Shown: piece by piece, positions 2,437-31,214 of the stretch
Layout of the letters: each line of letters opens with the position of its first letter
How positions within the stretch are numbered: position 1 is the first letter of the stretch
DNA from: Planctomycetota bacterium
GTDB taxonomy: Bacteria; Planctomycetota; JAJSAM01; JAJVHW01
Direction: 5' to 3'
Assembly (NCBI GenBank): GCA_024280885.1
Contig: JAJRPF010000052.1
Location: 59,225-123,224 of the forward strand
Length of the DNA: 64,000 bases
The notes under the pieces: generated by a model
What the model was told of the DNA's origin: nothing
The model's input: only the letters and a program-made list of their open reading frames with translations
Databases searched by the model: none
Translations under genes and position numbers: made by a program

Positions 2437-3645
2437 ATGGCGACGTTCAAACTCCGGCGCTTCGCCAGCGCCGATGCGCTCAAGCGCATCCGACCACCGA
2501 TTCTCCGGGCGCTGCTCGCGCCCCATGGGTCCTGTCTGGCCGAGCACGGCATCCATCTCAATGGCACGGGCGGCGGCGCCGACCTCGACTACGAGGCCCT
2601 GGCCGGCTTCCTCGTCAACCCGGACGAGACGATGCCGCAGGACCTGATCGACGCACTCTTCATGTCCAACGAGATGGCAACGCAGGAGGGCATGCTGACC
2701 CTCCTGGCGACGATCGACCGCATGCCGGCGGATGACCGTCCCGACCTCGGCAACTCGTCGGACCTGACGCCCGGTGACGTCGCAATCGCGGTCTGGCTCC
2801 ACTCGCCCAAACTCCTGGAGCGCCAGCACGCCGAGCGCGTCGTCGCCACCAAGAAGTCGTTCCTGACCTTCCTCGCTTCCGAGCGGCCGACCACGCCGTT
2901 CCCACCGCCCACGAACCGACAGATCCGCGGGTTGGAGAGCGCGCTCGGAGACTGGTTCGCCGAGAAGAAGAAGGGCGACGTGGCACGCGTCCTCGTCTAC
3001 GAGAAGCCCGACGAGGTGTGGTTCCTCGTGCGGCACGGCGACACGTACCGGCGCGAGGGCGCAGTGAAGGACGGCCAATCGTCGAGCGTGTTCTACCGCC
3101 CCGAGAAGCACGACGTGGTCGTCTACAACCCGGTCGTCGGCGAACTGCGGGTGAACGCGGTGACGAAGGGTGAGAAGGACCTCTACCGCAGGATGTTCGG
3201 ACTGCACCTCTTCGGGGATGCGGAGCACTTCCCTGCCTCCATCAAGAAGTACACGCTGGAACCGCTGCAGGTTCACGGCAAGGCGGCGCTCGTGTGCGCG
3301 GACGTCGAGGGCATCGACTCGATCCACCTCACCGAGGTGACCTACTTCTGGGGCGGTGCGTACAACGAGATGGAGATCCGCCGGGCGAGCGATATTTTCG
3401 CCGCCCTCGAAGCGCGCGAGCGCGACCTCCTCAGCAAGGTGCGGATCAGCGGGGCCAAGTTCCGCGTGAAGTTCAGCGACAGCAAGACGCCGCGCAGCGT
3501 GAACGTCCGCCCGTCGAACGTGGCGACGTTCACGCGCGACGACGATGGCAAGCACGTCGAGGAGTGGCTGCGCCTGCGCGAGTTCCTCGTGCCGCGCCCG
3601 GAGGAGTCCGACGATGACGGCGGAGACCCTGTGGCGCGCGCTTGA
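2437..3645 (+). CDS. Uncharacterised prophage protein A of two-gene cassette (402 aa)
   Basis: ATG after AGGAGGACC-type RBS; good coding character; no family recognised. Confidence 0.75.
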   Translation: MATFKLRRFASADALKRIRPPILRALLAPHGSCLAEHGIHLNGTGGGADLDYEALAGFLVNPDETMPQDLIDALFMSNEMATQEGMLTLLATIDRMPADDRPDLGNSSDLTPGDVAIAVWLHSPKLLERQHAERVVATKKSFLTFLASERPTTPFPPPTNRQIRGLESALGDWFAEKKKGDVARVLVYEKPDEVWFLVRHGDTYRREGAVKDGQSSSVFYRPEKHDVVVYNPVVGELRVNAVTKGEKDLYRRMFGLHLFGDAEHFPASIKKYTLEPLQVHGKAALVCADVEGIDSIHLTEVTYFWGGAYNEMEIRRASDIFAALEARERDLLSKVRISGAKFRVKFSDSKTPRSVNVRPSNVATFTRDDDGKHVEEWLRLREFLVPRPEESDDDGGDPVARA

Positions 3646-4681
3646 GGCAATGCCGGTCCGCTCCGGCGTCGAGGTGCAGTGGCGTGACGCCCTTGGCGAT
3701 ACCGCGCCCGCGATCCAGCCATTCCTCGAGACGCTGGACGGGTACGCGACGTCGTACCCCTGTCCGGAGCCCGGCAGCGACGGCTGTCCGCGCCGCGTCG
3801 TCGAGCACGACCGAGACGACATCGTCGCCGTCTGCCAACGTGACCCACTCACATGCGAGACGATCACACTCGCTCGGGAGGACATCGTCATTCGACGGTT
3901 GGATCTCCTGCGGCTCGCCGCATGGCTGCGCGACGGACTCGACTTGCGGGGAGATGCGCCGACCAACGCCGCGGGGCTTCGTCGCACGGCCGTCTGCGGT
4001 ATCTACCGGCCGGTAGCGGGCCGTGAGTTCCGCGTCTATGTGACGATCCAACCCAACCGCGCGGCGATGACCAGCGCTTGCGAGCGCCTCCTCGCACGAG
4101 AGACGGAAGCGTTCGCCTTGATCGTCCCGACAACCGATCACGTCGCCTCGGCCACGGCACGCCAACTCACGTCGCGCGGAGCCGCCGTCGTCGCGCTCCC
4201 TGACTTCACCGGCCTCGGGAACGGAGGGGCGCTCGCGATCCGCGCGGCGCCGGCTCATGTGTTCGCGTCCCTGCACGAGGGCATCGCGGAGCCGGCTGGC
4301 GAGCCGAGCCAGAACGGGATGGCCGACTTCGCGACGCCCGGCGATGCCACGTGGAGCGACGTCAACGTCCGGTTCACCGACTCGCACACGGTCTCGGTCG
4401 ATGTGCTCGGGACCACCGGGCGGTTCAGCTACGCCGAGATGGGCATGGTGAACCGGAAGACGCATCAGCCAACGCTCCAATGGGAACTGCTGCGCACGTT
4501 CGCGAATCGCCAGGGCTGGCTGATTTGGAGCGACCGTGACGCCCATCGGAATCGCAAGAAGCAGTGCGAGCGACTCGTCCGCGATCTCCGCGCCTTCTTC
4601 CGGATCACCGAGGGGCGCCCGATCGTGTTCAGCACGCAACGCCCCCGCGGCTGGCGCGTCGAGATCTCGCTCTCGATCTAG
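3614..4681 (+). CDS. Uncharacterised prophage protein B of two-gene cassette; C-terminal winged-helix-like region
   Basis: MTAETLWRALEAMP...; overlaps the upstream gene by 32 bp. C-terminus LQWELLRTFANRQGWLIWSD..RKKQCERLVRDLRAFFRITEGRPIVFS..RGWRVEI resembles an OmpR/PhoB-type wHTH. Confidence 0.7.
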   Translation: MTAETLWRALEAMPVRSGVEVQWRDALGDTAPAIQPFLETLDGYATSYPCPEPGSDGCPRRVVEHDRDDIVAVCQRDPLTCETITLAREDIVIRRLDLLRLAAWLRDGLDLRGDAPTNAAGLRRTAVCGIYRPVAGREFRVYVTIQPNRAAMTSACERLLARETEAFALIVPTTDHVASATARQLTSRGAAVVALPDFTGLGNGGALAIRAAPAHVFASLHEGIAEPAGEPSQNGMADFATPGDATWSDVNVRFTDSHTVSVDVLGTTGRFSYAEMGMVNRKTHQPTLQWELLRTFANRQGWLIWSDRDAHRNRKKQCERLVRDLRAFFRITEGRPIVFSTQRPRGWRVEISLSI

Positions 4682-4687
4682 CGCCGT

Positions 4688-4732
4688 CCAGCGACATGTC
4701 GCTGGCGCAATCTCGGGTTTCCGAAGAAACCC
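4688..4732. terminator. Palindrome CCAGCGACATGTCGCTGG followed by hairpin GGGTTTC-CGAA-GAAACCC
   Basis: Perfect 18-bp palindrome 4688-4705 and 7-bp stem/4-nt loop 4715-4732 immediately after the cassette; may be a terminator or an operator. Confidence 0.5.
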
Positions 4733-4833
4733 AATCGCTTCAACCCAATGGAGCACTGCGTCTTACGTCGGTTCCACGCGCCTCATGAGCTCTCCCAACG
4801 CCATGCCCAGCGACTTGTCGCAAGTCGCAGGCG

Positions 4834-5463
4834 ATGGCACACAACACCACCGCCCAGCAGGGCCTCGACCAGCACGCCGTTCGACTCGTCCGCCACAAGG
4901 CGCGACAGCTCATCAGACGGCCAGAGTTCACCGCCTCGGACCGCACGGATATCGAACAGGAGCTCTTTCTTGATCTCCTGACTCGCCTCCCACGGTTCGA
5001 CGCGACGCGCGCCAAGCGCACCACGTTCGTCGATCGAGTCGTCAACAACCGGGTGGCCACGCTTCTTGAAGCGCGCACCGCCGCGAAGCGCAACCCCGCG
5101 CGGTGCGTTGCCTCGCTCGACGCAGACGCCAACGACGACGAAGGGCACGCCGAGCCCGTCTGGGCAACGCTCGACCAACGTATGGGCCGCAGCGACGGCC
5201 GGACACCGCGCGACGATGCCCGGCTCCGCGACCTGCGCTTCGACGTTGGGGCTGCGATGTCGGACCTGCCCGAGGACCTGCGCGACCTCGCGGGACATCT
5301 CTCCCGCCAGACGCCGACCGAAGTCGCCCGCGCAAACGGCGTCCCCCGGCGCACCGTCAGGGATCGGATCGCTCGCATCCGGGGCCGCTTCGAGCGCGCC
5401 GGGTTGCGGATCTACCTGGAGTCCACCGCCACGTCGGCGACGACTCCGGTAGGTGATCAGTAG
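4834..5463 (+). CDS. Phage-encoded RNA polymerase sigma-70-like factor
   Basis: Region-2-like DRTDIEQELFLDLLTRLPRFDATRAKRTTFVDRVVNNRVATLLEAR and region-4-like DLPEDLRDLAGHLSRQTPTEVARANGVPRRTVRDRIARIRGRF. Confidence 0.65.
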   Translation: MAHNTTAQQGLDQHAVRLVRHKARQLIRRPEFTASDRTDIEQELFLDLLTRLPRFDATRAKRTTFVDRVVNNRVATLLEARTAAKRNPARCVASLDADANDDEGHAEPVWATLDQRMGRSDGRTPRDDARLRDLRFDVGAAMSDLPEDLRDLAGHLSRQTPTEVARANGVPRRTVRDRIARIRGRFERAGLRIYLESTATSATTPVGDQ

Positions 5464-5472
5464 GGGGACCAG

Positions 5473-5820
5473 ATGAACGCCCCCACGGAGATCCACTTGC
5501 CCCGCACGCTCTACCGCTACTCGTTCCGGCCGACAGTCGACCTCGACGAGGTCGAAGACTCGCTGCTTCTCGCCGTCTTCGCGGCGGAGGGAGTTCACGG
5601 CCAGTCCCAGGTGCGGATGGATGGTGAGTTTCTGCTCGACGAAGCGAAGCGCGCCTGCGTCGTCGATGCCACGACTCCTGCCGGCGAGACGATCGCCAAG
5701 GTCTTCACCACGTTCCTGGCCCGCGAGTTCGGGGAGGACGCCTTCACGGTCGAACGCGTCGCCTCGGAGGAGCGGATCGGACGCCCCGAGATGCCCCTTC
5801 ACGTGAGGAACGGCCGATGA
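5473..5820 (+). CDS. Hypothetical phage protein
   Basis: 115 aa, stop overlaps next start (ATGA). Confidence 0.6.
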   Translation: MNAPTEIHLPRTLYRYSFRPTVDLDEVEDSLLLAVFAAEGVHGQSQVRMDGEFLLDEAKRACVVDATTPAGETIAKVFTTFLAREFGEDAFTVERVASEERIGRPEMPLHVRNGR

Positions 5821-6830
5821 ACACGCGCGTAGTCACGACGTACTCCATGTGGTCGCTCTTCCGGAACTGCCGCAAGGCAGCGCAGTGGCGCTACCAGCTG
5901 GATCTGGTCCCGCTGGAGCGCGACCGCAACCTGAGGTTCGGTTCGCTCATCCACGAGTGCCTGGAGACGTGGCACGGGACCCGCGATCTGTCCGCAGCGC
6001 TCGACCACATCGACCGCGCCTGCGCGGACCGAGCGCGAGATGAGGACCAGCACCGCACGTGGCACCTCGCGACGGCCATGATGCGCGGCTACGCGGCGCG
6101 CTACCCGGCCGAGGACTTCGAGGTCGTCGCCCTGGAGAAGACGTTCGAGGGCCGGATCGTGAACCCCGCGACGGGCGCCGCGAGCCGGAGCTTCGTCCTG
6201 TCGGGCCGCGTGGACGGGATCGTCCGCGTCGGCGACGAGCACTTCCTCCTGGAGCACAAGACGGCCAGCGTCCTCGACGCCAGCTACCTCGAACGCCTCT
6301 GGACCGACTTCCAGATCACGCTCTACGCGTACTACGTCGAGCAGGCCCTCGGCATCCACATCTCGGGTGTCCTCTACAACGTGCTCGTCAAGACGCGGCT
6401 GAAGCAGCGCGCCGGCGAGACGCAGGTCGAGTACGAAGAGCGCCGCGCCGCGCTGATCGCCAAGTCGAAGACCGGGAAGAGTTCAGCCAAACGCCGGATG
6501 CCCGAGAGCGACGAGGAATTCCAGGCGCGGCTGCTGGCGAAGTACGCCGAGCCCGGGATGTTCCATCGCGAGCCGATCTACATCTCGCGCGACCGCTTCG
6601 AGACGCTGCGCGCCGAACTCTGGGAGCTGACCCAGGCGTTCCTCGACGCGCGCCGGCGCGGCGTCTTCTACGAGAACACCTCGTACTGCTTCCGCTGGGG
6701 GCGCCCGTGCGCGTACTTCCCGCTCTGCCGCTCGGGCGGGAGCAGCAACGTCATCGAGAACCTCTACCAGCGCGTGGCTCCCCACGAGGAACTGCGCGAC
6801 GCGGAGACCGCCGAGCCCGCGCCCTTCTGA
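5817..6830 (+). CDS. PD-(D/E)XK superfamily nuclease (RecB/Cas4-like)
   Basis: YSMWSLFRNCRKAAQWRY..L..., FGSLIHECLETWH, FVLSGRVDGIVRVGDEHFLLEHKTAS, C-terminal Cys-containing segment CFRWGRPCAYFPLC. Confidence 0.85.
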   Translation: MNTRVVTTYSMWSLFRNCRKAAQWRYQLDLVPLERDRNLRFGSLIHECLETWHGTRDLSAALDHIDRACADRARDEDQHRTWHLATAMMRGYAARYPAEDFEVVALEKTFEGRIVNPATGAASRSFVLSGRVDGIVRVGDEHFLLEHKTASVLDASYLERLWTDFQITLYAYYVEQALGIHISGVLYNVLVKTRLKQRAGETQVEYEERRAALIAKSKTGKSSAKRRMPESDEEFQARLLAKYAEPGMFHREPIYISRDRFETLRAELWELTQAFLDARRRGVFYENTSYCFRWGRPCAYFPLCRSGGSSNVIENLYQRVAPHEELRDAETAEPAPF

Positions 6831-6952
6831 TGTGCGAACACGCGGTCACCGTCCCTACCGGCCCCGCCGTGCGCCTGTGCACGACGTGCGGCGCCGTCCT
6901 CGAACGGCTGCCCGAACCGTCGGGGTGTGAAGGCGACGCCTGCCAGTCCTGA
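6830..6952 (+). CDS. Small zinc-ribbon-like protein (40 aa)
   Basis: MCEHAVTVPTGPAVRLCTTCGAVLERLPEPSGCEGDACQS; TGATG overlap with the previous gene. Confidence 0.5.
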   Translation: MCEHAVTVPTGPAVRLCTTCGAVLERLPEPSGCEGDACQS

Positions 6953-6980
6953 ACAACCACTGATCCACGAAGGAGATCCC

Positions 6981-7697
6981 ATGCTTCCAACCGCCAAGAC
7001 GCCCCCGCGAGATGCGCTCGCCGACCTGACCGTGCTCGTGTACGGACCGACCAAGATCGGCAAGTCGACGTGGTGCTCGCAGCCGGGCGACGCGCTCTTC
7101 CTCGCCACCGAGGCGGGCCTCAACAGCTTGGAGGTCTTCCAGTCCCCGATCGGGACCTGGGAAGAACTCCTGGCCGCGTGTGCGGAGATCGGCAAGGGCG
7201 AGCACACCTTCAAGACGATCGTGCTCGACACGGTGGACAACGCCTACCGCATGTGCGCGGACTACATCTGCGCGAAGTTCAAGGTCGACCACCAGAGCGA
7301 CCTCGCCTACGGCAAGGGCTACGCGCTGGTGAACAACGAGTTCCACCGCGTGCTGAACAAGTTGGCGCTGCTGCCCTACGGCCTCTTCCTCGTGTCGCAT
7401 TCGGTCGAGCGCGAGTTCGAGACCCGCACGGGGAAGGTGACACGCATCGTCCCGACGCTGCCCGAGAAGGCGCGGCAGATCGTGCTCGGCATGGTCGACA
7501 TGATCCTCTTCTGCGACCTGGAAACGAGCGCCGGCGAGGACGGGAAGACCGTCGTCCGCCGCGTCATGCGCACGAAGCCCTCCGCGCAGTACGAGGCCGG
7601 CGACCGCACCGGGCGCCTCCCCGAGGTGATCGACCTCGACTACACGACGTTCCTCGCCGCGTTCACGGCGGGGAGTCCCGCCAAGGCCACGAAGTAA
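6981..7697 (+). CDS. Phage RecA/Sak4-like AAA ATPase
   Basis: Walker A VYGPTKIGKSTWCS; RBS AAGGAG before ATG at 6981; next to DUF669. Confidence 0.85.
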   Translation: MLPTAKTPPRDALADLTVLVYGPTKIGKSTWCSQPGDALFLATEAGLNSLEVFQSPIGTWEELLAACAEIGKGEHTFKTIVLDTVDNAYRMCADYICAKFKVDHQSDLAYGKGYALVNNEFHRVLNKLALLPYGLFLVSHSVEREFETRTGKVTRIVPTLPEKARQIVLGMVDMILFCDLETSAGEDGKTVVRRVMRTKPSAQYEAGDRTGRLPEVIDLDYTTFLAAFTAGSPAKATK

Positions 7698-7716
7698 CCC
7701 CCAGGAGAAAGCCCCC

Positions 7717-8193
7717 ATGTACGAGTCCAACAACGACCTCGATCTCTCGCGGTTCGACGACGAGTTCGCCAGCGCGCCGATCGAGGAGCGCGAGTTCGAG
7801 CCGATCCCCGACGGCAAGTACCAGGTCAACGTCGAGAAGGTCGAACTGACCCGCGCCAAGAGCTCGGGCAACCCCATGCTCAAGTGGACGCTGCGCGTGA
7901 TCGCACCGCAGTGCCGCGGACGGCTGCTCTGGCGCAACAACGTGATGGCCACGCGCGAGAACCTGAAATGGCTGAAGAACGACCTCCACGTCTGCGGCCT
8001 CGACCTGGCGAAGGTCTCGGACCTGCCGGGGCGCCTGGAGGAGCTGCTCGACGTGAAGCTCGAGATCACCAAGCGCACGCGCGGTGAGAACGAGAACGTC
8101 TACTTCAACCGCCGGATCGTCGTGGACGACGCGGCCGGGAACGGCACGGGCGACCTCGGCGCCGACGGCAACGACGAGCTGATCCCCTTCTAG
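7717..8193 (+). CDS. DUF669-family protein (putative phage ssDNA-binding)
   Basis: DGKYQVNVEKVELTRAKSSGNPMLKWTLRVI...GRLLWRNNV pattern. Confidence 0.8.
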   Translation: MYESNNDLDLSRFDDEFASAPIEEREFEPIPDGKYQVNVEKVELTRAKSSGNPMLKWTLRVIAPQCRGRLLWRNNVMATRENLKWLKNDLHVCGLDLAKVSDLPGRLEELLDVKLEITKRTRGENENVYFNRRIVVDDAAGNGTGDLGADGNDELIPF

Positions 8194-8629: not shown

Positions 8630-10842
8630 CCAGAGCGCGAGCGAGAGAAACGTCAACCGTCGCGGTATGCGGCCGGGTGGAGACCGTGTTCTACGCAAGC
8701 CCGCGATTCAGCGCCGGTCGCCTGCGCACGGACGACGGCAAGACCGTTTCCTTCGCTGGCGCGCTCATGGTCCAGCAGCACGACTCCGTGGTCCTGCACG
8801 GGACGTGGGAGCGTCACGCGAAGTACGGTCGCCAGCTCAAGGTCGTGCGCTTCACGTTCGACCAACGGATCACAGGCGAGGGCCTCGCGCACTTCCTCGC
8901 CAGCCACAAGGGCATCCGCGGCATCGGCCCCGTCAAGGCGCGCCGCATCGCTGAGGTCTTCGGTGACGAGTTCGACCGCGTGATCGACGAGGAGCCCGCG
9001 CGCGTCGCGGCGGTAGCCAAGGTGCCTCTCTCCGCCGCGATGACGCTGCGCGACGAGTGGCTCGGCACGCGGACGCTGAACTCCGCAATGACCTGGCTTG
9101 CCTCGTTCCAGCTCACGCACTACCAGATGACGACGCTCATCGAGAAGTTCGGGAACGCCGTGGTCACGGTGCTGAAGACCGACCCCTACCTGCTCGTCCG
9201 CGAGGTCCCCGGCTTCGGGTTCAAGCGGGTGGATCTCGTGGCGCGCAAGATGGGGACGCCGAAGGAGCACCCATCGCGTCTGCGCGCGGGCATCGTCCAC
9301 TGCGTGGCCGAGCGGCTCGGCCGCGGCGACTGCTGGATCGAGTACGAGGACCTCCTCGACCTCGCGAACATCCTCCTGGTCCTCGATGTCGCGGACAGCC
9401 GGAACCGCATCGAGCGGGCGCTCGACTCGCTGATCGCGGAGGGCGCGCTGGCGTGCGTCTCGGTCGGCGGGAGGTTCCTGGTCGCGCAGCCGGCGATGCA
9501 CCGGATGGAGTGCGACCTCGCCGAGATATTCGCGGCGCGCGGCCGCGGGAACCCACACTTCCCCCCGGACGATCTCGACGAACTGGTCGATGCCGCGGGG
9601 TCTGACCTGAATGAGTGCCAGCAGCGTGCTCTCGAGGCCAGCGCTCGGGAGAACGTCGTCCTCATCTGCGGCGGGGCCGGCGCGGGGAAGACGTTCACCA
9701 TCGCCGCGATCACGCGGATGTACGAGACCGCCGGGCTGGACGTCGTGCTCGCCGCGCCGACCGGGAAGGCGGCCAAACGGATCGAGCAGGTCGTTGGCCG
9801 CGAGGCCATGACGATCCACCGGTTGCTGGGGTTCAACGGACACGCCTACTCAGCCGGGCCCGACGAACCGATCGAAGCCGACGTCGTCATCGTGGACGAG
9901 GTGTCGATGGTGGACGTGCCGCTCGCGTGGCGGCTCTTCCAGGCGCTCGACCTCCGCCGCACGTGCGTAGTCCTGGTCGGCGACCACAATCAGCTTCCGC
10001 CCGTCGGCCCGGGGAACCTGCTGCGCGATCTGATCGAGCGCCGGCCTTGCCCGACCGTCGTGCTCGACCAGGTCGTCCGCCAGGCGGGCGTTCTCAAGGA
10101 GAACTCGCTCGCGATTCTGACGGGCGACGTGCGCGCGACGGCGACGGCCGGGCCGGACGGGCGGCCGCCCTGGATCGCGTTGAACCGCCGGTCCAACATC
10201 CTCGACGTCCAGCACTGCGTTCTGGAGCTCTTCGAGTCCGCGCTTGTCGAGCGGCTGCGCTTCGATCTCCTCGCCGAAGTACAACTCCTGACGCCGACCC
10301 ACAAGGGCCCGCTCGGCACAGAGGCGCTGAATGTGCTCCTGCAGCGCCTCGTGCAGCGCAAGCTCCACGGCGTCACGGTCACGCCGCCCGCGCCGGGACG
10401 GCGGCCCCGACTCCTGCTTCGCGACCGCGTCATTCAGACGCGGAACAACTATGACCTGGGTGTGATGAACGGCGCGATCGGGATCGTGACCGAGATCGGT
10501 CCGCGCCGCGGCGAACTCACCGTGCGCTTCGACCACGCGGACATCGCCTACACGCCCGAGAACGAGGGAGTGCGCGATCTCGCGCTCGCCTACGCGCTCA
10601 CGATCCACAAGAGTCAGGGGAGCGAGTATCCGTGCGCCGTGATCATCGTCCACAAGGCGCACTCCTTCATGCACCACCGCAACCTCCTCTACACCGGCGT
10701 CACGCGAGCACGCGATGTCGCGATCCTGGTCGGTGACTCTTGGGGCATGCGGAACTGCGCCCAGAAGGAGAAGGTCGAGAAGCGCAAGACGTTCCTCTCC
10801 GTCCTGGATTTCCCGGTGGACTCCGCCCGAGGCCGTGGATGA
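8626..10842 (+). CDS. RecD-like SF1 DNA helicase
   Basis: GGAGAGKTFTIAAI, DVVIVDEVSMVD, VLVGDHNQLPPVGPGNLLRD, ALTIHKSQGSEYPCAVIIV, TGVTRARDVAILVGD. Starts by ATGA overlap at 8626. Confidence 0.93.
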   Translation: MTRARARETSTVAVCGRVETVFYASPRFSAGRLRTDDGKTVSFAGALMVQQHDSVVLHGTWERHAKYGRQLKVVRFTFDQRITGEGLAHFLASHKGIRGIGPVKARRIAEVFGDEFDRVIDEEPARVAAVAKVPLSAAMTLRDEWLGTRTLNSAMTWLASFQLTHYQMTTLIEKFGNAVVTVLKTDPYLLVREVPGFGFKRVDLVARKMGTPKEHPSRLRAGIVHCVAERLGRGDCWIEYEDLLDLANILLVLDVADSRNRIERALDSLIAEGALACVSVGGRFLVAQPAMHRMECDLAEIFAARGRGNPHFPPDDLDELVDAAGSDLNECQQRALEASARENVVLICGGAGAGKTFTIAAITRMYETAGLDVVLAAPTGKAAKRIEQVVGREAMTIHRLLGFNGHAYSAGPDEPIEADVVIVDEVSMVDVPLAWRLFQALDLRRTCVVLVGDHNQLPPVGPGNLLRDLIERRPCPTVVLDQVVRQAGVLKENSLAILTGDVRATATAGPDGRPPWIALNRRSNILDVQHCVLELFESALVERLRFDLLAEVQLLTPTHKGPLGTEALNVLLQRLVQRKLHGVTVTPPAPGRRPRLLLRDRVIQTRNNYDLGVMNGAIGIVTEIGPRRGELTVRFDHADIAYTPENEGVRDLALAYALTIHKSQGSEYPCAVIIVHKAHSFMHHRNLLYTGVTRARDVAILVGDSWGMRNCAQKEKVEKRKTFLSVLDFPVDSARGRG

Positions 10843-13544
10843 CTGCGGGCGCTCCTCCGGCCGCTGACGCGGCGATCGACCTCTTCCGGCGGCGGTTCCT
10901 CAACCGCACGGACTGCGTGGCGGTCCGGACCGACCGCGGCACGCCTCGTCCGGTGGACGCGAACGGCACGCTGGACGGGCTGCTGCGCGGACACCTGCTC
11001 GGCGACGCCGCGCCCATCGCCAAGGTCCGCTTTCGGAGCCGCGGCGGCGCGGGCGCAATGTCCGGCCGCTTCCGCATCGGGAGCTACTGCCCGGCGCCGG
11101 ACAACAGCACGCGTTGGCTCTGCCTCGACTTCGACGGCGCCGGCCACGCCGACGCTCTCGCGGATCCGGCGGCCGCAGCACGCGCGGCCTACGAGCGGTT
11201 CACCGCGGCGAGCCTTCCGGCCTACCTCGAGCGATCGGGGGGCGGAAACGGCTGGCACCTATGGTGCTTCTTCGATCCGCCGATCCCGGCCGCGAAGGCG
11301 CAGGCCCTGGGGCGAGCGCTCGCGCCGACGGATGCCCCCCTCGCCGACGGCGGAGTGGCGGACCCACTCTCCGCGCGCGGGATCGAGGTGTTCCCGAAGC
11401 AGGCGAAGATCAGGAAGAACGGTTACGGGAACCTCGTGTGGCTTCCCTGGTGGGACGGCGCTCCGGAGGGCGCCAACCTGTTCTACCGCCCGGGAGATAC
11501 CGGCAGCTTCGATCCCTTCACGCCCGAGGACCTCGACGTCGCGGACGCGGCCGCCGTCGCGCACGTGTTGGCCGACGTGGCGGCGATGGAGACTGCGGTG
11601 GCCCCGGGCGCCGATGCGAACACATCCTCCGAACACGGCGCAACGTGGGCGGACTGGCGGCGCCATGCGCTCGCTGCGCTTCCGGTGGAGTCCGTCTACG
11701 GCACCTGGCTCACCGGCCGGTCGTCCGGTTCGGGGTGGATGGAGTGCCGGGACCCGTCGTCTCCCTCCGGCGACGCAAACCCCTCCGCGGGCGTGGCAGA
11801 CGGAACGGGCGATGCCGAGCGCGGCGCGTTCCACTCGTTCATCTCAGGGAAGACGAGCTCGGTCTTCGACTTCATGGTCGAGCACGGGATGGCGAGCGAC
11901 TTCCGCGCGGCGATGGCGCTCGTCGCCCGGCACTCGGGCGTCACGTTGCCGAAGCCATCCGCCGCTCCGCGCAACATCACCCGATCGCGTATCCGCGTCA
12001 ACAACCGCCAACTCCGCGACGTCCTCGCCGACGCATGGCGTGTCGTCCACGCGACGAACAAGCGCCCTGCGCTCTTCGTCCGCAGCGGCGTCTTGGTACG
12101 CCTCGGCGCGGCTGAGTCGGGGCCCCGCATCGAGACCGTCGAGGAGACCGCGATGTTCGGCCACCTCTTCCGGGTCGCGAACTGGGTCCGCGTCACGCAG
12201 GACGCCGTCCTCGACGCGCCGCCGCCCAGGGACGTCGCGCGCGACATGCTCGTCAACCCCGCCGACGAACTCCCGCCCCTCGACGCGATCGTCGCAACAC
12301 CGGTCTTCGACGCAGAGGGACGGCTGGTCTCCACGCCCGGCTACCACAAGCAGGCGCGGCTCTGGCTCCACCAAGCGCCGGGTCTCGACCTCGCGGCGGT
12401 GCCGGACCGGCCGACCGAGGAAGACGTGCGCGCTGCCCGCGAGGTCGTCCTCGACGAACTCCTCATCGACTTCCCGTTTGCGGCCTCCTCGGACCGCGCG
12501 CATGCAGTGGCGGCGCTCATCTTGCCCTTCGTTCGCCGCATGGTCAGCGGTTGCACCCCGATCCACCTCATCGAGGCGCCTACGCCCGGAAGCGGCAAGG
12601 GGCTCCTCGCCGACATCGTTGCGATCGTCGCGCTCGGCCGGCCCTGCGACCCGACCACCATCACGCGGGACGAGGACGAGGCGCGGAAGAAGATCACGTC
12701 GATCCTCGCCCGCGCGCAGCCGCTGATCCTGATCGACAACATCCGCCACGGGCTCGACTCCGCGCAGCTCGCGGCGGCGCTCACGGCCGAGACCTGGTCC
12801 GACCGGATACTCGGCCAGACGAAGATGATCGACCTCCCGAACCGGGCCACGTGGCTGGTCACCGCCAACAACCCGAAGCTCTCCCTGGAGATCGCACGGC
12901 GTTGCGTGCGCGTGCGACTCGATCCAAAACGCGACCGCCCCTGGGAACGCACGGGCTTCAAGCACGCGCCACTCCGGGATTGGGCGCGACAGAACCGCGC
13001 GGCGCTCGTCCACGCTGTCCTCGTCCTGGTTCGGGCGTGGATCGCTTCGGGGCAGACACCGAGTACTCGGATGCTCGGCTCCTTCGAGAGTTGGGCAGGC
13101 GTCGTGGGCGGCATCCTCGCGCACGCCGGTATCGAGGGGTTCCTCGATGACACGGAGCAGCTCTACGAGCACGCGGACTCCGAAGGCCAGGAGTGGCGCC
13201 AGCTCGTCACGGCGTGGTGGGATCGACACGGCTGCCAGTGGGTGACGGCCCGTGATCTGCTCCACCTCGTCAGTGAGCAGGATCTCCTCGGCCACGTCGT
13301 GGGCGACAAGTCCGAGCGCTCTCAGCTCATCCGGCTGGGCCGCGCGCTCTCGGCAGCCCGCGATCGTCACTTCGGAGAGCACCGCATCGTGACCGGCCGC
13401 AATTCGAACACCAAGGCTGCGCAGTACCGGCTCGTCGCAGACGATGCTGCGGAGCCCGCGCCCACGAACGAACCGCCCGCTGCCACCCACGGGTTCGGCG
13501 ACGGTCTCGACAGTCTCTTCCCGTCCCTCACGGGGACGCCGTGA
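10839..13544 (+). CDS. TOTE-type archaeo-eukaryotic primase fused to AAA+ helicase-like domain
   Basis: LCLDFDGAGHADA..YLERSGGGNGWHLWCFFDPPIPAAKAQALGRAL...EVFPKQAKIRKNGYGNLVWLPWW; C-terminal AAA with EAPTPGSGKGLLADI and WLVTANNP. Confidence 0.8.
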   Translation: MTAGAPPAADAAIDLFRRRFLNRTDCVAVRTDRGTPRPVDANGTLDGLLRGHLLGDAAPIAKVRFRSRGGAGAMSGRFRIGSYCPAPDNSTRWLCLDFDGAGHADALADPAAAARAAYERFTAASLPAYLERSGGGNGWHLWCFFDPPIPAAKAQALGRALAPTDAPLADGGVADPLSARGIEVFPKQAKIRKNGYGNLVWLPWWDGAPEGANLFYRPGDTGSFDPFTPEDLDVADAAAVAHVLADVAAMETAVAPGADANTSSEHGATWADWRRHALAALPVESVYGTWLTGRSSGSGWMECRDPSSPSGDANPSAGVADGTGDAERGAFHSFISGKTSSVFDFMVEHGMASDFRAAMALVARHSGVTLPKPSAAPRNITRSRIRVNNRQLRDVLADAWRVVHATNKRPALFVRSGVLVRLGAAESGPRIETVEETAMFGHLFRVANWVRVTQDAVLDAPPPRDVARDMLVNPADELPPLDAIVATPVFDAEGRLVSTPGYHKQARLWLHQAPGLDLAAVPDRPTEEDVRAAREVVLDELLIDFPFAASSDRAHAVAALILPFVRRMVSGCTPIHLIEAPTPGSGKGLLADIVAIVALGRPCDPTTITRDEDEARKKITSILARAQPLILIDNIRHGLDSAQLAAALTAETWSDRILGQTKMIDLPNRATWLVTANNPKLSLEIARRCVRVRLDPKRDRPWERTGFKHAPLRDWARQNRAALVHAVLVLVRAWIASGQTPSTRMLGSFESWAGVVGGILAHAGIEGFLDDTEQLYEHADSEGQEWRQLVTAWWDRHGCQWVTARDLLHLVSEQDLLGHVVGDKSERSQLIRLGRALSAARDRHFGEHRIVTGRNSNTKAAQYRLVADDAAEPAPTNEPPAATHGFGDGLDSLFPSLTGTP

Positions 13545-13810: not shown

Positions 13811-13907
13811 CCCGGTGGAACGAACTGGAGGTATCGGGACGCAAGAGCGTGCATCGGGAGCAAGCGTGCTCCGACTCCTGGGGCCCGCGGGCCCCGGAGA
13901 ACGCGAC

Positions 13908-15113
13908 GTGCGAACACAGACGAAGACAGAGAAGCCACGGAGATCGAAGCGTAGGCGCCGCTTCGGCAACATCTACTCCCGCAAGTGGGGTTCGGGCCGT
14001 CGGACCTGGTCGGCCAGATGGTTCTGCAAGACCGAGCGCCGCTGGATCACGCGGGCGTTCGAGACCGAGAAGGAAGCGAAGGACTTCCTCATCGAGATCG
14101 AGCGTCGCATCCTCGCCGACGCCTACGAGGTCCCGCCGACACTCGTCGAGACGACCGAGCCGAAGGAACCGGAGAAGCGGAACGGGCGCGTCCCGACGCT
14201 CGTCGAGTACGCCGACGACGTGATCGAGCGCCGCTTCGAGCCGGTGCTCGCCCCCGGAACGATCGGCGTCTACCGCGCCGCGCTTCGCGCCTGGAAGGCC
14301 TACTTCGGCAAGCGCGACGGGCAGCGCGCCGTGCGGCTCGACGAGATCACGCCCGCCCGCTGGCTCGACTACCGGGCCTGGCGTGCGAGGACGCGCAACT
14401 CCAGATACGGGAAGAAGACGACCGTCAGCGCGCGAACGTTGAACGCCGACCAGCAGAGCATCGTCCGCATCCTGAACGAGGCGATCCTCGACGGGCACAT
14501 CGAGACGAATCCGCTCGCGGGCATCAAGAAACTCCGCGAGACGCGCAGGCCTCGGCGCTACCTCACGAAGAAGGAACTCGGGACGCTGATCAGCAACTGC
14601 CCCGAGCACTTCAAGCCCTTCCTGCTGACGGCCATCTACACAGGTGCGCGCAAGGGGGAACTCACCGCGCTGCGCTGGTCGGACATCGACTTCACGGACG
14701 GGAAGATTTCGCTCTACAGGCCGAAGACCGGGACCGCCGACCTGCTCGACCTACACCCCGCCGTCGCGGCCGAACTCACGCGGCTGCGGGGCTCCCGCGA
14801 GAACGTCCGGCCCGACGACCACGTCTTCCTTTCCTGCCACGGGACGCCGTACAAGGAGATCCGCCGCTCCTGGGACCTGGCTCTCAAGGCCGCCGGGCTG
14901 AATGGCCGCAAGGGCCTGACGCCGCACAGCTTGAGGCACAGCTTCGCGACGCACTTCCTCCAGAACGGCGGCGCGGTCACCGACCTGCAGCAGCAACTCG
15001 GGCACGCCGAACTCGCGACGACGCAGATCTACGCGGCGGCGCTCAGCGGGCGGCGGCGGGATGCCGTGATGGCGCTCGACTTCGGGTCGCAATCGCAGTC
15101 CGAGTCGCCGTGA
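13908..15113 (+). CDS. Tyrosine recombinase/phage integrase
   Basis: AIYTGARKGELTALRWSDIDF, LTPHSLRHSFATHFLQNGGAVTDLQQQLGHAELATTQIYA. Start uncertain. Confidence 0.93.
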   Translation: MRTQTKTEKPRRSKRRRRFGNIYSRKWGSGRRTWSARWFCKTERRWITRAFETEKEAKDFLIEIERRILADAYEVPPTLVETTEPKEPEKRNGRVPTLVEYADDVIERRFEPVLAPGTIGVYRAALRAWKAYFGKRDGQRAVRLDEITPARWLDYRAWRARTRNSRYGKKTTVSARTLNADQQSIVRILNEAILDGHIETNPLAGIKKLRETRRPRRYLTKKELGTLISNCPEHFKPFLLTAIYTGARKGELTALRWSDIDFTDGKISLYRPKTGTADLLDLHPAVAAELTRLRGSRENVRPDDHVFLSCHGTPYKEIRRSWDLALKAAGLNGRKGLTPHSLRHSFATHFLQNGGAVTDLQQQLGHAELATTQIYAAALSGRRRDAVMALDFGSQSQSESP

Positions 15114-25653: not shown

Positions 25654-26400
25654 TCATGCGGGTTCGCTCGTCGGGGAACTCTCGGCATCGCTCAGGGGCT
25701 GTAGCGGAGACGGCTCTGTCGCACTCTCGGGATCTCGACACACGAAGGCTGCAACGGCCACCGGCGCGCGGGTGAGGAGCAGCGCGAGGACGAGTCCTGC
25801 GGCGAGCCCGGAGAAGAGTGTGAACGTCAGCTCAACGTGCAGGTATTGCGGAAGCTCCATGCTGCGGAGTTCCTGGTGGGCCAGTATATCGGCGTTCGGG
25901 GCGCCTTCGGCCGCATGCAGGGAAATCAGCCGTGGGAGCAATGCCCCGCGGTAGAGCAGGACCTCGCCGAAGACGAAGAACGCGGCGAACGACAGGCCCG
26001 CGGCGCGCTGTACGGCCGGACCGCGCGTGCGTGCTCCGGCCCACGCGCCGACGCCGATCAGGGCTCCGGCGATCGGCAGCATGAAGTGCGCTGCGCCGCC
26101 CGTCGTGCGCGCCACGAACATCCAGGTCACCGCGAGCAGGCTGGCGATCAGGAGCGCGACACCGACGGAACGCTCCTGATCCTCGCGCGCTACGCCACCC
26201 GGGCGCACAAGTGGGGTTCCGCAGGCCGGGCACGCCACCGGAGTCCGCCCCGCGACCGGAACACGGGCGGGCGCGGGTTCGCCGCACGGGCAGTTCAGGC
26301 GAAGCTCGGTGTCGGCAGACGGGGCGGATGGGCGCACTTCTGCATGATACGGATGGCGGGGCGAGGCGGCGCCGGATGCGTGAGGCGCCGCAGCGGCCAT
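25654..26400 (-). CDS. Membrane protein with N-terminal zinc-ribbon-like motif
   Basis: LRLNCPCGEP...VACPACGTPLVRPG then several TM segments. Start at 26400 inferred from TGATG overlap. Confidence 0.55.
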   Translation of the reverse strand: MAAAAPHASGAASPRHPYHAEVRPSAPSADTELRLNCPCGEPAPARVPVAGRTPVACPACGTPLVRPGGVAREDQERSVGVALLIASLLAVTWMFVARTTGGAAHFMLPIAGALIGVGAWAGARTRGPAVQRAAGLSFAAFFVFGEVLLYRGALLPRLISLHAAEGAPNADILAHQELRSMELPQYLHVELTFTLFSGLAAGLVLALLLTRAPVAVAAFVCRDPESATEPSPLQPLSDAESSPTSEPA

Positions 26401-26549
26401 CAGCGCGACGGCGACGTCTCGTTCAGGTCGACGCGCGCCGGAAGCCCGGCCTCGGTTGCCGTCTTCGGACAGCCGGGGCAGCCGGCGCACCCGACCGCGA
26501 AGCTGATGGCAAGCAACAGAAGGAGAGAGCACAAGAGTCGAGGTCTCAT
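26400..26549 (-). CDS. Small Cys-rich lipoprotein (49 aa)
   Basis: Manual translation MRPRLLCSLLLLLAISFAVGCAGCPGCPKTATEAGLPARVDLNETSPSR; lipobox AVGC; too short for the ORF track. Confidence 0.6.
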   Translation of the reverse strand: MRPRLLCSLLLLLAISFAVGCAGCPGCPKTATEAGLPARVDLNETSPSR

Positions 26550-26578
26550 GCGCCGAGCATACCGTTAGTCTTGCGAGA

Positions 26579-27469
26579 ATGTGGCTCCGGCTCACTCTGT
26601 TGATCCTCGTCGTCGCGCTGAACGGCTGTGCGTCCGTCCCCAGCGAACGGGCACTCGCCGTCAATGGCGTCGTGTTCGCCGACGATCAACGGACGGCCAC
26701 GCGCACCGCGGAGTTGCTCGATGAGATGAGCGCGCGCCTCGACGCGCTGGACGTCGGTCTCGTGGTACGCCCACTCGAGGTCTGGCTTTTCGCGAAGTTG
26801 GACGACGCAGATATCTACGGCGGCTACGACGCTCCGCGCCACCGCATCCTCCTCGACGCGCAGCGCAAGCACCCTGCCGCGACCCTGGCGCACGAGCTGG
26901 TGCACGCCTACGAGCCGCTCTCGTGGGCTCGACTGCCCGCCGTCGTGCGCGAGGGGCTCGCCGACCACCTCGCGGCGCGCGCCGTGCCCGAGATCGCTGC
27001 CCAGATGCGCGCCGCGCGAGCCGTCAGCCTGGCGAGCTACGCGACCGGGGGCCTGCCCATTTCGGTCGAGGGCCCGACGGGTCGCATATCGATGACTCGG
27101 CTGGCAGTGCCCATCAGCGAAACGACGCTCTCGCCGCTGGAAGCACTCGCGCTGCCCCACGGCGGTATCCGCGCGGCGGGCGACGGGCAGACGCTCAAGG
27201 CGCTCTACGGGATGGGGCTCTTGATCGTCTCGCGAGCGGGCAGGGAGCGACTCGTCGAGATCGCGCAGAACGAGGGCGACGGCGCGCTCGTCGATCCGAG
27301 CCTGATCCTCGCGGCGGCACGGCTCAGCGCGGACAAGACGACGTGGCTGCCAGCCATCGAAGGGTTGCTACAGGGGCGCGAGGAACTGGATTTCGCGCGC
27401 CAGATGCTCGGCCAGCCACCACTGCCGCAAGACGATTCCAATGCCTCCGATGCGGACGTGCGAGACTGA
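26579..27469 (+). CDS. Putative lipoprotein metallopeptidase (HExxH)
   Basis: Lipobox VVALNGCAS; TLAHELVHAYEPLSWARLPAVVREGLADHLA. Confidence 0.7.
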   Translation: MWLRLTLLILVVALNGCASVPSERALAVNGVVFADDQRTATRTAELLDEMSARLDALDVGLVVRPLEVWLFAKLDDADIYGGYDAPRHRILLDAQRKHPAATLAHELVHAYEPLSWARLPAVVREGLADHLAARAVPEIAAQMRAARAVSLASYATGGLPISVEGPTGRISMTRLAVPISETTLSPLEALALPHGGIRAAGDGQTLKALYGMGLLIVSRAGRERLVEIAQNEGDGALVDPSLILAAARLSADKTTWLPAIEGLLQGREELDFARQMLGQPPLPQDDSNASDADVRD

Positions 27470-27473
27470 CGAC

Positions 27474-28514
27474 ATGGACTTGTCCCTCACGCAGATCGCG
27501 GAACTGACCGGCGGCCGACTGGCCGGCGACGGCGACCGCATCATTTCCCGCGTCCGGCCCGTTCACGAGGCGGGCCCGGGCGAACTCGCGTTCGTCGCCA
27601 ACGAGAAGGCGCGCGCCGCCGCCCTGACGTGTAAGGCCGAGGCGCTGATCGTCGCCGACGGCCTGACCGTCGAAGGCCACCAGGTCGTCTTCCACGAGAA
27701 CCCGTTCGCAGCCATCTCGGCCGTGATTGCCGTACTCTACCCGGAGCCGAAGGCGGAGCCCGGTGTGCACGCGATGGCCGTCGTCGATCCGACGGCGACA
27801 CTGGGTGAAGGCGTCTCCGTGGCGCCGTTCGCGACAATCGGCGCTGGCGCGATCATCGGCGACGGCTCCCGGATCGGCACCGGAGCGGTGATCGGCGACG
27901 GGGTCATTCTCGGCGCCCGCGCACGCATCCATCCGCGTGCGGTGATCTACACGCGCGTCACCATGGGAGACGACTGCGAGATCCACTCGGGCGCGGTGCT
28001 CGGCGCCGACGGGTTCGGCTTCACGTCCGTCGATGGTCAGCACGTGAAGGTGCCGCAGGTCGGCGGCGTCGAGCTCGGCAACGACGTCGAGGTCGGGGCG
28101 AACTCCTGCATCGACGCGGGCACGCTCGCCCCGACGCGCATCGGCGACAACACGAAGATCGACGACCTCGTGATGATCGGTCACAACAACCAGATCGGAC
28201 AGCGCGTCATGCTGTGCGGGCAGGTCGGGTTGGCGGGTAGCAATATCATCGAGGACGACGTGATCCTGACGGGCCAGACCGGCGTCTCGGGGCATCTGGT
28301 CGTCGGCAAGGGCGCGATCTCGGCGGCCAAGACGGGCATCCTGCGCGACGTGAAGCCCGGGCACCGTGTCGCGGGGACACCGCCGATGCCGCTAGAACTG
28401 TGGCGACGCGTGTGGAAGGCCAGTCAGCACCTGCCCGACATGCGGCGCGAGATGAAGGCGATGCTCCGGCGGATCGACGACCTCGAGCGCCTTGTGGACA
28501 CTGAGGCGCCGTGA
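27474..28514 (+). CDS. lpxD: UDP-3-O-acylglucosamine N-acyltransferase
   Basis: LTQIAELTGGRLAGDGDRIISRV; hexapeptide repeats; GDDCEIHSGAVLGADGFGF; IAHNN-type motif MIGHNNQIG. Confidence 0.95.
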   Translation: MDLSLTQIAELTGGRLAGDGDRIISRVRPVHEAGPGELAFVANEKARAAALTCKAEALIVADGLTVEGHQVVFHENPFAAISAVIAVLYPEPKAEPGVHAMAVVDPTATLGEGVSVAPFATIGAGAIIGDGSRIGTGAVIGDGVILGARARIHPRAVIYTRVTMGDDCEIHSGAVLGADGFGFTSVDGQHVKVPQVGGVELGNDVEVGANSCIDAGTLAPTRIGDNTKIDDLVMIGHNNQIGQRVMLCGQVGLAGSNIIEDDVILTGQTGVSGHLVVGKGAISAAKTGILRDVKPGHRVAGTPPMPLELWRRVWKASQHLPDMRREMKAMLRRIDDLERLVDTEAP

Positions 28515-28556
28515 GCGTGGCACGGGGTCTGCGAAGGCAGACCCCGTTCCACGCTC
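28513..28556. repeat. Near-perfect 20-bp hairpin overlapping the lpxD stop
   Basis: GAGCGTGGCACGGGGTCTGC-GAAG-GCAGACCCCGTTCCACGCTC, one mismatch. Confidence 0.85.
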
Positions 28557-28566
28557 GTATTGCGCT

Positions 28567-28749
28567 TGTGGCGACTCCGTCGCCACCCCTCGCTTCGCTC
28601 GGGTGTTCGGATTCGGTCGCGGCTCCGGCTGCTTCAACTGGGCCCGCGGTCGGAGGTCGATGCCTCGCATTGGGTCGGAGCCACGACGTTGGACTGAACG
28701 CGTCACGAGGACGGGTTTCGCAGGCGGAATCCACTCCCTGCACCTCACG
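28567..28749 (+). repeat. Dispersed repeat family B, copy 1
   Basis: Core GTGTTCGGATTCGGTCGCGGCTCCGGCTGCTTCAACTGGG; homologous to 29119-29312 (inverted) and ~63866-64000. Confidence 0.85.
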
Positions 28750-29118
28750 TAACTGGTGAACCGGGGTCGAGCTCGGCGGTGTTGCGTCTGTGCCGACTCC
28801 GCCTCCCCAACGCCCCCGCACACAAGACAAGGCCCGGTCTGGAACCGATTGGTCCCGAGTCAGGCGGGGAGGGCGGCGGTGGTCCTCGATGGGTGTGGCT
28901 CTTCAGAGGGTACCCGGGCTTCGGCGCTCGATCTGGCTCAGGCTGGCAACCCAACGGAGCGCCGCAGACCGGGGACCCGGAGACACGTGCGAGTTTGCCA
29001 GCCTCCGGTGGAGCTCGGCGACAGCCGCGATGGCCAGCCGGCCGACAGTTCCGAAGGGCTTGCGGAAGCTGAGCGCGGGGCGCGCTGTGTGGCTTCGCAC
29101 TCAGCGTGACGCGCGCGG

Positions 29119-29312
29119 TGAGGTGCAGGGAGCGGATTCCGCCTGCGAAACCCGCCCTTGTGACGGGCGTACTGGCGCGTCGAGGTGACGACCCGATGCG
29201 GGGCCGCGACCTCCGACCGCACCCCCAGTTGAAGCAGCCGGAGCCGCGACGGAAGCCGAACACCCGAGCGAAGCGAGGGGTGCCGACGGAGTCGGCACAG
29301 ACGCAACACCGC
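29119..29312 (-). repeat. Dispersed repeat family B, copy 2 (inverted)
   Basis: Reverse complement GTGTTGCGTCTGTGCCGACTCCGTCGGCACCCCTCGCTTCGCTCGGGTGTTCGGCTTCCGTCGCGGCTCCGGCTGCTTCAACTGGGGG...; flanked by ~47-bp direct repeats 29073-29119 and 29311-29358. Confidence 0.85.
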
Positions 29313-29369
29313 GCGGGGCGCGCTGTGTGCGCCTCGCACGCAGCGTGAAGTGCGCGGTCGCGGCGGCGG

Positions 29370-31109
29370 TCACATCGCTTCGGGGGCGGCCATGCCGATC
29401 AGTGACAAGGCGTTTGCCAGGGTCTGCTTCACCGCGCTGGCCAGGGCGAGTCGGGCGCGGGCGGTCTCGGGGTCGTCGCAATTGACTTTCAGCGCTGGGT
29501 CCTTGTTGCCCTTCGCGTACCACGAGCTGAAGGCGCGGCAGAGGTCGAGCGCGTAGCCCGCGATCCAATGCGGTTCGTTGCGCGCGCCGGCGTGGCGGAC
29601 CTTCTCGGGGAACTGGGAGAGGAGGAGGGCGACCTGCCATTCCGCCTCGGTCGTGAGCAGCGCTGGGGCCGCGCCCGCCGTCTCGACACCGGACTTGCGG
29701 ATGATGCTCGCGATCCGCGCGTGCTGGTACTGGCAATACGGGCCGGTGTCGCCCTCGAAGGCGAGCAGTCGCTCCCAGTCGAACTCGACGTCCTTCACGC
29801 GTTCGCGCGACAGATCCGCGAAGATGATGGCGCCGTAGCCGACCTGGCGCGCGACCTCGCGGCGTTGCTCCGCGGGCATGTCCGTGTTCTTCTCGGTGAT
29901 GACGGCTTCGATTTGGTCCGCCGCACGATCGAGGACCTCGTGCAAGAGCGTCACGTTGCCGCCGCGCGACGACGTCTTCACACCTCCGAAACGGATCTGC
30001 CCGAAGGCCACATGCTCGAGGCGACCAGCGAACGGATAGCCCGCCTTCTCGACCACCTTGAACCACTGCCTGAAGTGCAGCGTCTGCCCCTTGCCGACGA
30101 CGTAGAGCGCGCGGTCGAACGACCACTCTTCGTGACGGTGCACCGCCGACGCGATGTCGCGCGTGGCGTAGAGAGTTGCGCCGTCTTGCTTGCGGAGCAG
30201 GCACGGTGGCATCTGCTCGTCTGCCAGTTCCACGACGACGGCGCCGTCGGAGAGAGTCGTGAGCCCCTTGGCCGCGAGGTCGGCGAGCACCGGGTCCATG
30301 CGGTCTTCGTAGAAACTCTCGCCGTAGAGGGCGTCGAAGGTGACGCCGATCCGCGAGAAGACCTCCTCGAACTCCGCCAGCGAGATCTCGCGGAAACGCG
30401 ACCACAGGGCACGCGCCTCGACGTCTCCGCCCTCGAGTTTCGCGAACCACTCGCGGGCCAGGACGTCGAGCGCCGGGTCTTCCTTCAGCGCCTCGCGATA
30501 CCGGACATAGAGCGCGTTGAGCTTGGTGACACCGTCTTCCGCAAGGTCCACGCCCTCGGGTTCGCCCCACATCTTCCACGCGGCGATGAGCATCCCATGC
30601 GTCGTCCCCCAGTCGCCGAGGAAGTTGAACCCGACAACCCGCCAGCCAAGCGCCGCGTAGATCGAGCACAGCGCCTTCCCGATCATGGTCGAACGGATGT
30701 GGTGGTACGCCAGGTGCTTGCTGATATTCGGTGACGAGTAGTCGATGACGACGGTTAGTTGACGGCCATCAGCGTCGACCGCCGGCCGGGCCGCGTGCCC
30801 GAACGTCGCGCCGCGCTCGGCAATCTCTCCGAGCAGGTTCGTGAGGAAGACGGGCCGGTCGAGACGGAAGTTCACGAAGGGCCCGGACGCCTCGGCAGAG
30901 GCGAGACCGTTCCCCGGGTCGAACGCGTCCACCACCTGCTGCGCTAGGCGCGAAGGGGCATTGCGGAGGACCTTCGCGAACGGGAACATCGGCACAGCGA
31001 AATCGCCCATGGCGGGGTCGGGCGGCGTGCCGATGGCAACCTTCGTGTCGGCGGGCAAGTCGAGAGCGCGCACAATCGTCGCGCGGACGGCATCGGTGAA
31101 ACTGCTCAT
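29370..31109 (-). CDS. argS: Arginyl-tRNA synthetase
   Basis: VVIDYSSPNISKHLAYHHIRSTMIGKAL, class I argS signature; DALR-type C-terminus. Confidence 0.95.
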   Translation of the reverse strand: MSSFTDAVRATIVRALDLPADTKVAIGTPPDPAMGDFAVPMFPFAKVLRNAPSRLAQQVVDAFDPGNGLASAEASGPFVNFRLDRPVFLTNLLGEIAERGATFGHAARPAVDADGRQLTVVIDYSSPNISKHLAYHHIRSTMIGKALCSIYAALGWRVVGFNFLGDWGTTHGMLIAAWKMWGEPEGVDLAEDGVTKLNALYVRYREALKEDPALDVLAREWFAKLEGGDVEARALWSRFREISLAEFEEVFSRIGVTFDALYGESFYEDRMDPVLADLAAKGLTTLSDGAVVVELADEQMPPCLLRKQDGATLYATRDIASAVHRHEEWSFDRALYVVGKGQTLHFRQWFKVVEKAGYPFAGRLEHVAFGQIRFGGVKTSSRGGNVTLLHEVLDRAADQIEAVITEKNTDMPAEQRREVARQVGYGAIIFADLSRERVKDVEFDWERLLAFEGDTGPYCQYQHARIASIIRKSGVETAGAAPALLTTEAEWQVALLLSQFPEKVRHAGARNEPHWIAGYALDLCRAFSSWYAKGNKDPALKVNCDDPETARARLALASAVKQTLANALSLIGMAAPEAM

Positions 31110-31214
31110 GGGTCTCCCACCGCGCGGCGCTCGCGGGCCGCGCACCCGCTCTCGGGTTGGTCTGGCGGCGCCGCCCACCCGGCGTGGGGGAGCAGGCGCC
31201 GCAGCGAACCGCTC

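Follow-up and report, generated by a model that had tools for sequence, protein, structure and literature searches.

A near-constant two-gene module in the early control region of temperate phages, with a candidate role in lysogeny control

The window, by which we mean the whole 64,000-nt stretch of DNA analyzed here, and to which coordinates refer unless another locus is named, contains a prophage in whose early region two overlapping genes, encoding proteins that we call A and B, precede a sigma factor gene. The features are as follows.

2019 to 2334, both strands: array of nine GCGGGATGT sites, direct and inverted, in the divergent intergenic region (overlooked in the initial annotation)
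2160 to 2205: GC-rich inverted repeat GTGCGCGCGCGTAGTAG...CTACTGCGCGCGCGC at the center of the array
2437 to 3645, plus strand: gene for protein A, 402 aa
3614 to 4681, plus strand: gene for protein B, 355 aa, with its ATG at 3614
4298 to 4678, plus strand: exchangeable C-terminal domain of B, predicted winged helix of type 1
4688 to 4705: perfect 18-bp palindrome CCAGCGACATGTCGCTGG (halves CCAGCGACA and TGTCGCTGG) right after the B stop codon, a proposed operator
4715 to 4732, plus strand: hairpin GGGTTTC-CGAA-GAAACCC in the B-sigma intergenic region
4800 to 4838, plus strand: hairpin that includes GCGACTTGTCGC and buries the sigma start codon (window z, −3.5)
4834 to 5463, plus strand: ECF-type sigma-70 factor, 209 aa (TIGR02937, 43.8 bits against a cutoff of 42.9; PHROG sigma factor, 2e-14)
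5473 to 8193, plus strand: continuation of the early operon, encoding a 115-aa protein, a PD-(D/E)XK exonuclease, a Sak4-like annealing ATPase, and an SSB-like protein

The A and B reading frames share 32 bp, and GC content at the third codon position (~0.90 for A and ~0.84 for B) makes it clear that both are coding; the initial annotation, which described ORFs of 402 and about 355 aa with this overlap, was exact. Its statement that the two genes sit alone was misleading, since A-B forms the head of the rightward early operon and travels with ECF sigma and recombination genes in other phages. The late genes run leftward, starting with a P27-like small terminase and continuing with terminase, portal, capsid, and tail genes (these recognized by eye in L020), and the prophage ends at a tyrosine-integrase-like gene (13866 to 15113). 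To the left of the prophage (L021, 5780 to 11112; G000:C64, ~25,779 to 31,111) lie four adjacent genes encoding proteins of 283, 905, 185, and 407 aa, the 905-aa product being SMC-like by eye; the set may be a Wadjet (JetABCD) operon.

Neither A nor B, searched singly and as alignments, matched a family in Pfam, PHROGs, or PADLOC at permissive cutoffs or in NCBIfam, which bears out the initial impression that neither family is recognizable. The defense-protein models of PADLOC-DB 2.0.0 gave zero matches to either protein, sequence searches of the PDB gave no match, and a literature search found no paper on the pair. Homology to a structural or housekeeping phage family was also looked for, and sequence libraries and Foldseek returned none that was confident.

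Relatives of A were detected with a single-sequence query on 10 genome contigs (one of them a fragment) and 2 viral contigs, and with an alignment query on 16 viral contigs (IMG/VR). They were present in 7 of the 99 relatives searched and in 21 of the 392 genomes of the phylum, and their hosts include Planctomycetales, Rhodopirellula, Nitrospirota, Deltaproteobacteria, Magnetococcales, Hydrogenedentota, and Armatimonadetes MAGs. By tblastn, A was absent from 50,697 named phage records and 72,556 plasmids. Some contigs are near duplicates (L006/L007, L030/L031/L032/L034, L035/L043, and L037/L062/L063), so that the independent loci number ~30; the relatives are mostly from metagenome assemblies, and their genes were called with a home-made caller. 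In one MAG (L007, 8001 to 9194), A is almost the same as in L006 but is interrupted by an in-frame stop codon, possibly through an assembly error, and B is intact.

A survey of homologs showed that A and B do occur as a pair. B lies immediately 3′ of A on the same strand in ~37 loci, and the exceptions are contig ends (L027 and L074), L011, where the copy is damaged, and the irregular contig L042. In three genomes the pair is fused into a single ORF: L067 and L068 each have one 729-aa ORF with A first and B second, and in L100 (genome G177) a 746-aa frame spans both. Pairwise distances among A proteins correlated with those of the N-terminal part of B (r = 0.81; 30 taxa; Mantel P = 0.001), of LexA (0.91; 7 taxa), and of the ECF sigma factor (0.61; 24 taxa), whereas the values for the Sak4 annealase (0.23; 20 taxa) and the serine recombinase (0.03; 23 taxa) were low. 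This difference indicates that (LexA-)A-B-sigma is a unit that stays together. The sigma gene usually lies within two genes downstream of A-B and is followed by exonuclease, Sak4-like annealase, and SSB-like genes; these downstream recombination genes are swapped (PDDEXK/PDD2, AAA298, and helicase types) while A-B-sigma is retained. These sequence comparisons show that the A-B pair is near obligate, sometimes fused, and codivergent both within the pair and with the sigma gene, and that recombination and integration modules are swapped around the (LexA-)A-B-sigma unit. A-B is a near-constant core of the early region across diverse phages and not a variable accessory insert. Two observations concern the surroundings of the pair. 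In LexA-type phages, a protein of 110 to 120 aa (u110) without a Pfam, PHROG, or NCBIfam match is encoded between B and sigma (L006, 10538 to 10867; L004, 11297 to 11659; and others), and in L030 a tmRNA and a tRNA adjoin the A-B element (9192 to 9839), a possible integration site.

Protein A is conserved across a 35-member alignment (A3) and has a slightly negative net charge. Its AlphaFold2 model, built from 35 rows (pLDDT, 85.9; pTM, 0.76), comprises a helical N-terminal domain (residues ~1 to 136) followed by alpha/beta modules at ~141 to 290 and ~291 to 386. In a Foldseek search with this model, three chains of E. coli RdgC led the matches (E, 3e-6 to 9e-5), the best being 2owl (E, 3e-6; probability, 1.00; ~311 columns; TM, 0.33/0.42; rmsd, 10 Å), and nine CENP-N/Chl4 chains also matched (E, 4e-5 to 2e-2; 200 to 360 columns). 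The leading matches of these types had Foldseek probabilities of 0.92 to 1.00; the best match outside RdgC and CENP-N/Chl4 had a probability of 0.13. TM-scores were low, mostly 0.30 to 0.36 of the query, with rmsd values of 7 to 16 Å over multidomain alignments, as expected if the domain orientations differ, and hence the assignment serves for fold class and does not prove homology. A is predicted from the model to adopt the RdgC/CENP-N fold, which is also that of λ RexA. At the sequence level, a PF04381 search of the whole source genome, including A, was negative, and hhalign gave probabilities of 0.5% for A against RdgC (no sequence similarity) and 0.1% for A against RexA (the RexA side consisting of four close sequences); comparisons of B with RdgC, of B with RexA, and of A with B gave nothing. 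Since hhalign likewise fails to detect RexA against RdgC, which are known relatives, its negative result for A is uninformative.

Protein B combines a Cys/His-rich N-terminal domain, an alpha/beta middle, and a C-terminal winged helix. The AlphaFold2 model (pLDDT, 91.2) is that of a soluble alpha/beta protein with a winged helix, the maximum 19-residue hydropathy is 1.23, and the structure has no fold match in the PDB and BFVD libraries (nothing below an E value of 0.09). The Cys/His positions (PCP...GC..VV.H..DIVAVC) are present in the N-terminal part of most, but not all, members. The initial annotation had called the C terminus winged-helix-like; the secondary structure of the model (pLDDT, 91) agrees, some relatives give weak HTH matches (HTH_Crp_2 and LacI, from other versions of the domain), and we take B to end in a predicted winged helix. 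The C-terminal third exists in at least four versions that are swapped while the remainder of B is conserved, and its distance correlation with A is 0.24. A DNA-reading domain swapped on a constant core is what would be expected of an immunity-type regulator. The type-1 winged helix of B is also found behind many unrelated N-terminal domains in Planctomycetota proteins of unknown function (L092 to L099 and L103); it is a general output domain that Pfam does not cover.

We determined which genes lie upstream of A in the other loci. A true LexA gene is directly 5′ of A in 10 of them, with LexA_DNA_bind and Peptidase_S24 domains and a TIGR00498 score of 176 bits against a cutoff of 111 (one member was domain scanned, and the rest were called by similarity to it). 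Most LexA loci have a TTGACC-17-TATAAT-like promoter, and several of the spacers hold an inverted repeat such as GACCTTATGGACGTAAGGTC. In four further loci, a Cro/CI-type repressor and/or an IrrE/ImmA-type protease is upstream: an XRE-type repressor and a peptidase occupy the LexA position in L038, L039, and L040 (Pfam confirmed HTH_3/HTH_31 and Peptidase_M78 for L038 and L039; L040 was read by eye), and an M78 peptidase is in the upstream position in L064. ImmR/ImmA of ICEBs1 is a parallel repressor/protease switch. IrrE/DdrO-type pairs are damage-responsive repressor/protease switches (PMC8072749). Judged by gene neighborhood, a repressor of a DNA-damage-sensing type often precedes A-B: LexA in some phages, and in others a Cro/CI-type repressor together with an IrrE/ImmA-type protease. 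In L010, a DinB-like (DNA polymerase IV-like) gene, identified by eye, lies directly 3′ of LexA-A-B (10248 to 11363); an SOS mutagenesis cassette was rejected as a general explanation because this is a single occurrence.

The window itself has no LexA gene adjoining A and no recognizable sigma-70 promoter before A. The region upstream of A is occupied by the GCGGGATGT array, whose nine sites compare with an expected count of 0.95 in the whole window. A sister phage (L023) has five sites at the same position and a similar central inverted repeat, and the array was not seen in the other A-B loci. We rejected the array as a host regulatory box, since 6 of the 20 genome-wide TGCGGGATGT sites fall inside it. 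A role as the operator of B is disfavored because L023 has the array but a different B C-terminal domain, so that this domain is unlikely to bind the array.

The palindrome and hairpin that the initial annotation had placed after B were both found, the former at 4688 to 4705 and hairpins at 4715 to 4732 and 4800 to 4838. A second operator-like copy, GCGACTTGTCGC, lies 119 bp beyond the palindrome (4810 to 4821), and the same or similar 12-mers precede the sigma gene only in loci whose B has the type-1 domain: GCGACATGTCGC, GCGAAATTTCGC, GTGAAATTTCAC (five times in L010), and GTCAAATTTGAC (twice in L013). In L065, 12-mer palindromes lie upstream of the A-B module and not of the sigma gene. The consensus GYSAMWWKTSRC, which was written after inspection of the sites, was counted 14 times across 300 kb of type-1 loci and not once across 270 kb of the remaining loci. 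With no preset pattern, the 400 nt preceding sigma contained a total of 12 perfect 12-bp palindromes in 15 type-1 loci (1.8 expected) and 2 in 12 non-type-1 loci (1.6 expected). Not all of these loci are independent, the palindromes from L035/L043 are of a different kind, and several type-1 loci (L004, L008, L030, and L066) lack such a palindrome ahead of sigma; hence, the association with type 1 is strong, not decisive. Within that limit, palindromes appear in the sigma control region where B ends in a type-1 winged helix.

The hairpin at 4715 to 4732 lacks a T run and is therefore no canonical terminator. Leaders or start-burying hairpins precede the sigma gene in the window (4800 to 4838) and in L004, L006, L008, L024, L028, L030 to L039, L064, and L073. 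In one phage group, the sigma leader is conserved and structured, with 25 consensus pairs, 8 of which show changes in both partners; none of 500 shuffles did as well, slid versions were far worse, and the last hairpin pairs the Shine-Dalgarno sequence. In other groups, unrelated hairpins bury the sigma start codon (z, −6.0 in L024 and −5.4 in L037). Sigma start regions were less accessible than 214 other starts (P = 6e-4, with GC content not controlled). An Rfam search with the leader returned no family, and we regard the covarying leader as a candidate new cis-regulatory RNA.

We propose that, in a broad group of temperate phages, the lysogeny-control region encodes a DNA-binding regulatory complex whose two subunits are A and B, and we judge the chances of this to be about even. 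B would read palindromes through its exchangeable C-terminal domain, and A, to which B would be tied, would be a general DNA-binding clamp. The target of the complex would be the sigma factor behind the next phase of phage expression, with repression or gating the most likely mode of control. DNA damage that inactivates the repressor would alter the level of A-B, and the hairpin over the sigma start codon would add a translational brake. A-B is located in the repressor/early control region, as expected of lysogeny-switch regulators. The initial annotation had offered either a lysis-lysogeny switch or defense and exclusion cargo at this position; the repressor modules, the codiverging sigma factor, the palindromes, and the RdgC/RexA-type fold favor the switch, and the near-constant core and the empty PADLOC search disfavor cargo. 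A more specific version is tentative and, on balance, doubtful: an undescribed phage decision module, common among uncultivated bacteria, leading from a damage-sensing repressor to an A clamp and a B with swappable operator readers, and from there to a gated ECF sigma factor with an RNA-locked start, the pair being a relative of CENP-N/CENP-L in fold and in pairing logic.

Alternatively, A-B may be an accessory of recombination or replication, in which A is an RdgC-like clamp controlling RecA/Sak4-dependent recombination and B is a loader or targeting subunit. The fold of A and the continuation of the operon with exonuclease, Sak4-like annealase, and SSB are consistent with this role, as is the carriage of RdgC by phages such as P1 and F116 and its position next to SSB in phage BR319b. 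However, A tracks sigma and LexA rather than Sak4, the recombination genes are swapped while A-B-sigma stays, and the palindromes are placed at the sigma promoter; we consider this role unlikely. Exclusion stays a rival to lysogeny control, given the resemblance of A to the fold of λ RexA, which acts in both exclusion and the switch. A-B would then be a Rex-like superinfection exclusion or abortive infection system expressed from the prophage repressor operon, with A sensing incoming phage DNA and B as the effector. The order repressor-A-B matches cI-rexA-rexB, A is in the RexA/RdgC fold class (PMC11077077), and RexAB-type defense operons in P. putida prophage 1 have repressors close by (PMC12894663). 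Nevertheless, B is no membrane protein and ends in DNA-binding domains, PADLOC gave no match, and near-constant presence and sigma linkage suit a core function, which makes exclusion quite improbable in our estimate. Finally, a partition or replication-initiation complex, with the GCGGGATGT array serving as a centromere or origin for a CENP-N-like clamp and its DNA-binding partner, is very improbable: the array, whose nine repeats flank a large inverted repeat, adjoins A and is conserved in L023, and A is structurally similar to CENP-N/Chl4, but among A-B loci the array was found only in this phage and L023, L023 combines it with another B C-terminal domain, and integrases or serine recombinases mark integrating elements.

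Control circuits of temperate phages in Planctomycetota and other uncultivated phyla are essentially undescribed. A-B can serve as a marker of an entire group of such phages and is a candidate regulator in them; none of the 50,697 named phage records searched contains it, and its locus offers a concrete putative operator and RNA leader that are testable at the bench. The pair also joins clamps of the RdgC/RexA/CENP-N type with phage sigma factor control, topics that are seldom combined.

Among known systems, the LexA and DdrO/IrrE (ImmR/ImmA) modules supply the repressor types directly upstream of A-B in other phages; they are neighbors of A-B and not homologs, and they are absent beside A in the window. 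RdgC (PF04381; 2OWL), the best structural match of A, is phage-borne and near SSB in some phages. As a ring-shaped dimer, it binds DNA and keeps RecA in check. RdgC is shorter than A, without the N-terminal helical domain, has no sequence similarity to A, and has no known B partner. The likeness to λ RexA-RexB lies in the order repressor-A-B, in the 10 LexA loci and the 4 M78-peptidase loci and not in the window. RexB is a membrane protein with four predicted transmembrane helices, whereas B is a soluble HTH protein; A has no sequence similarity to RexA, and a sigma factor gene comes after A-B. The gene for λ RexA lies immediately behind cI; the protein shares the RdgC fold, binds DNA nonspecifically, biases the switch, and has been noted as similar to Iml3/Chl4 (PMC11077077). 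A matches chains of CENP-N/Chl4 of the inner kinetochore, which also hold DNA together with a partner, CENP-L/Iml3, although these proteins are eukaryotic, the TM-scores are low, and B shows no CENP-L-like fold. If the predicted fold holds, a two-protein relative in bacterial viruses would bear on the origin of the CENP-N type of clamp.
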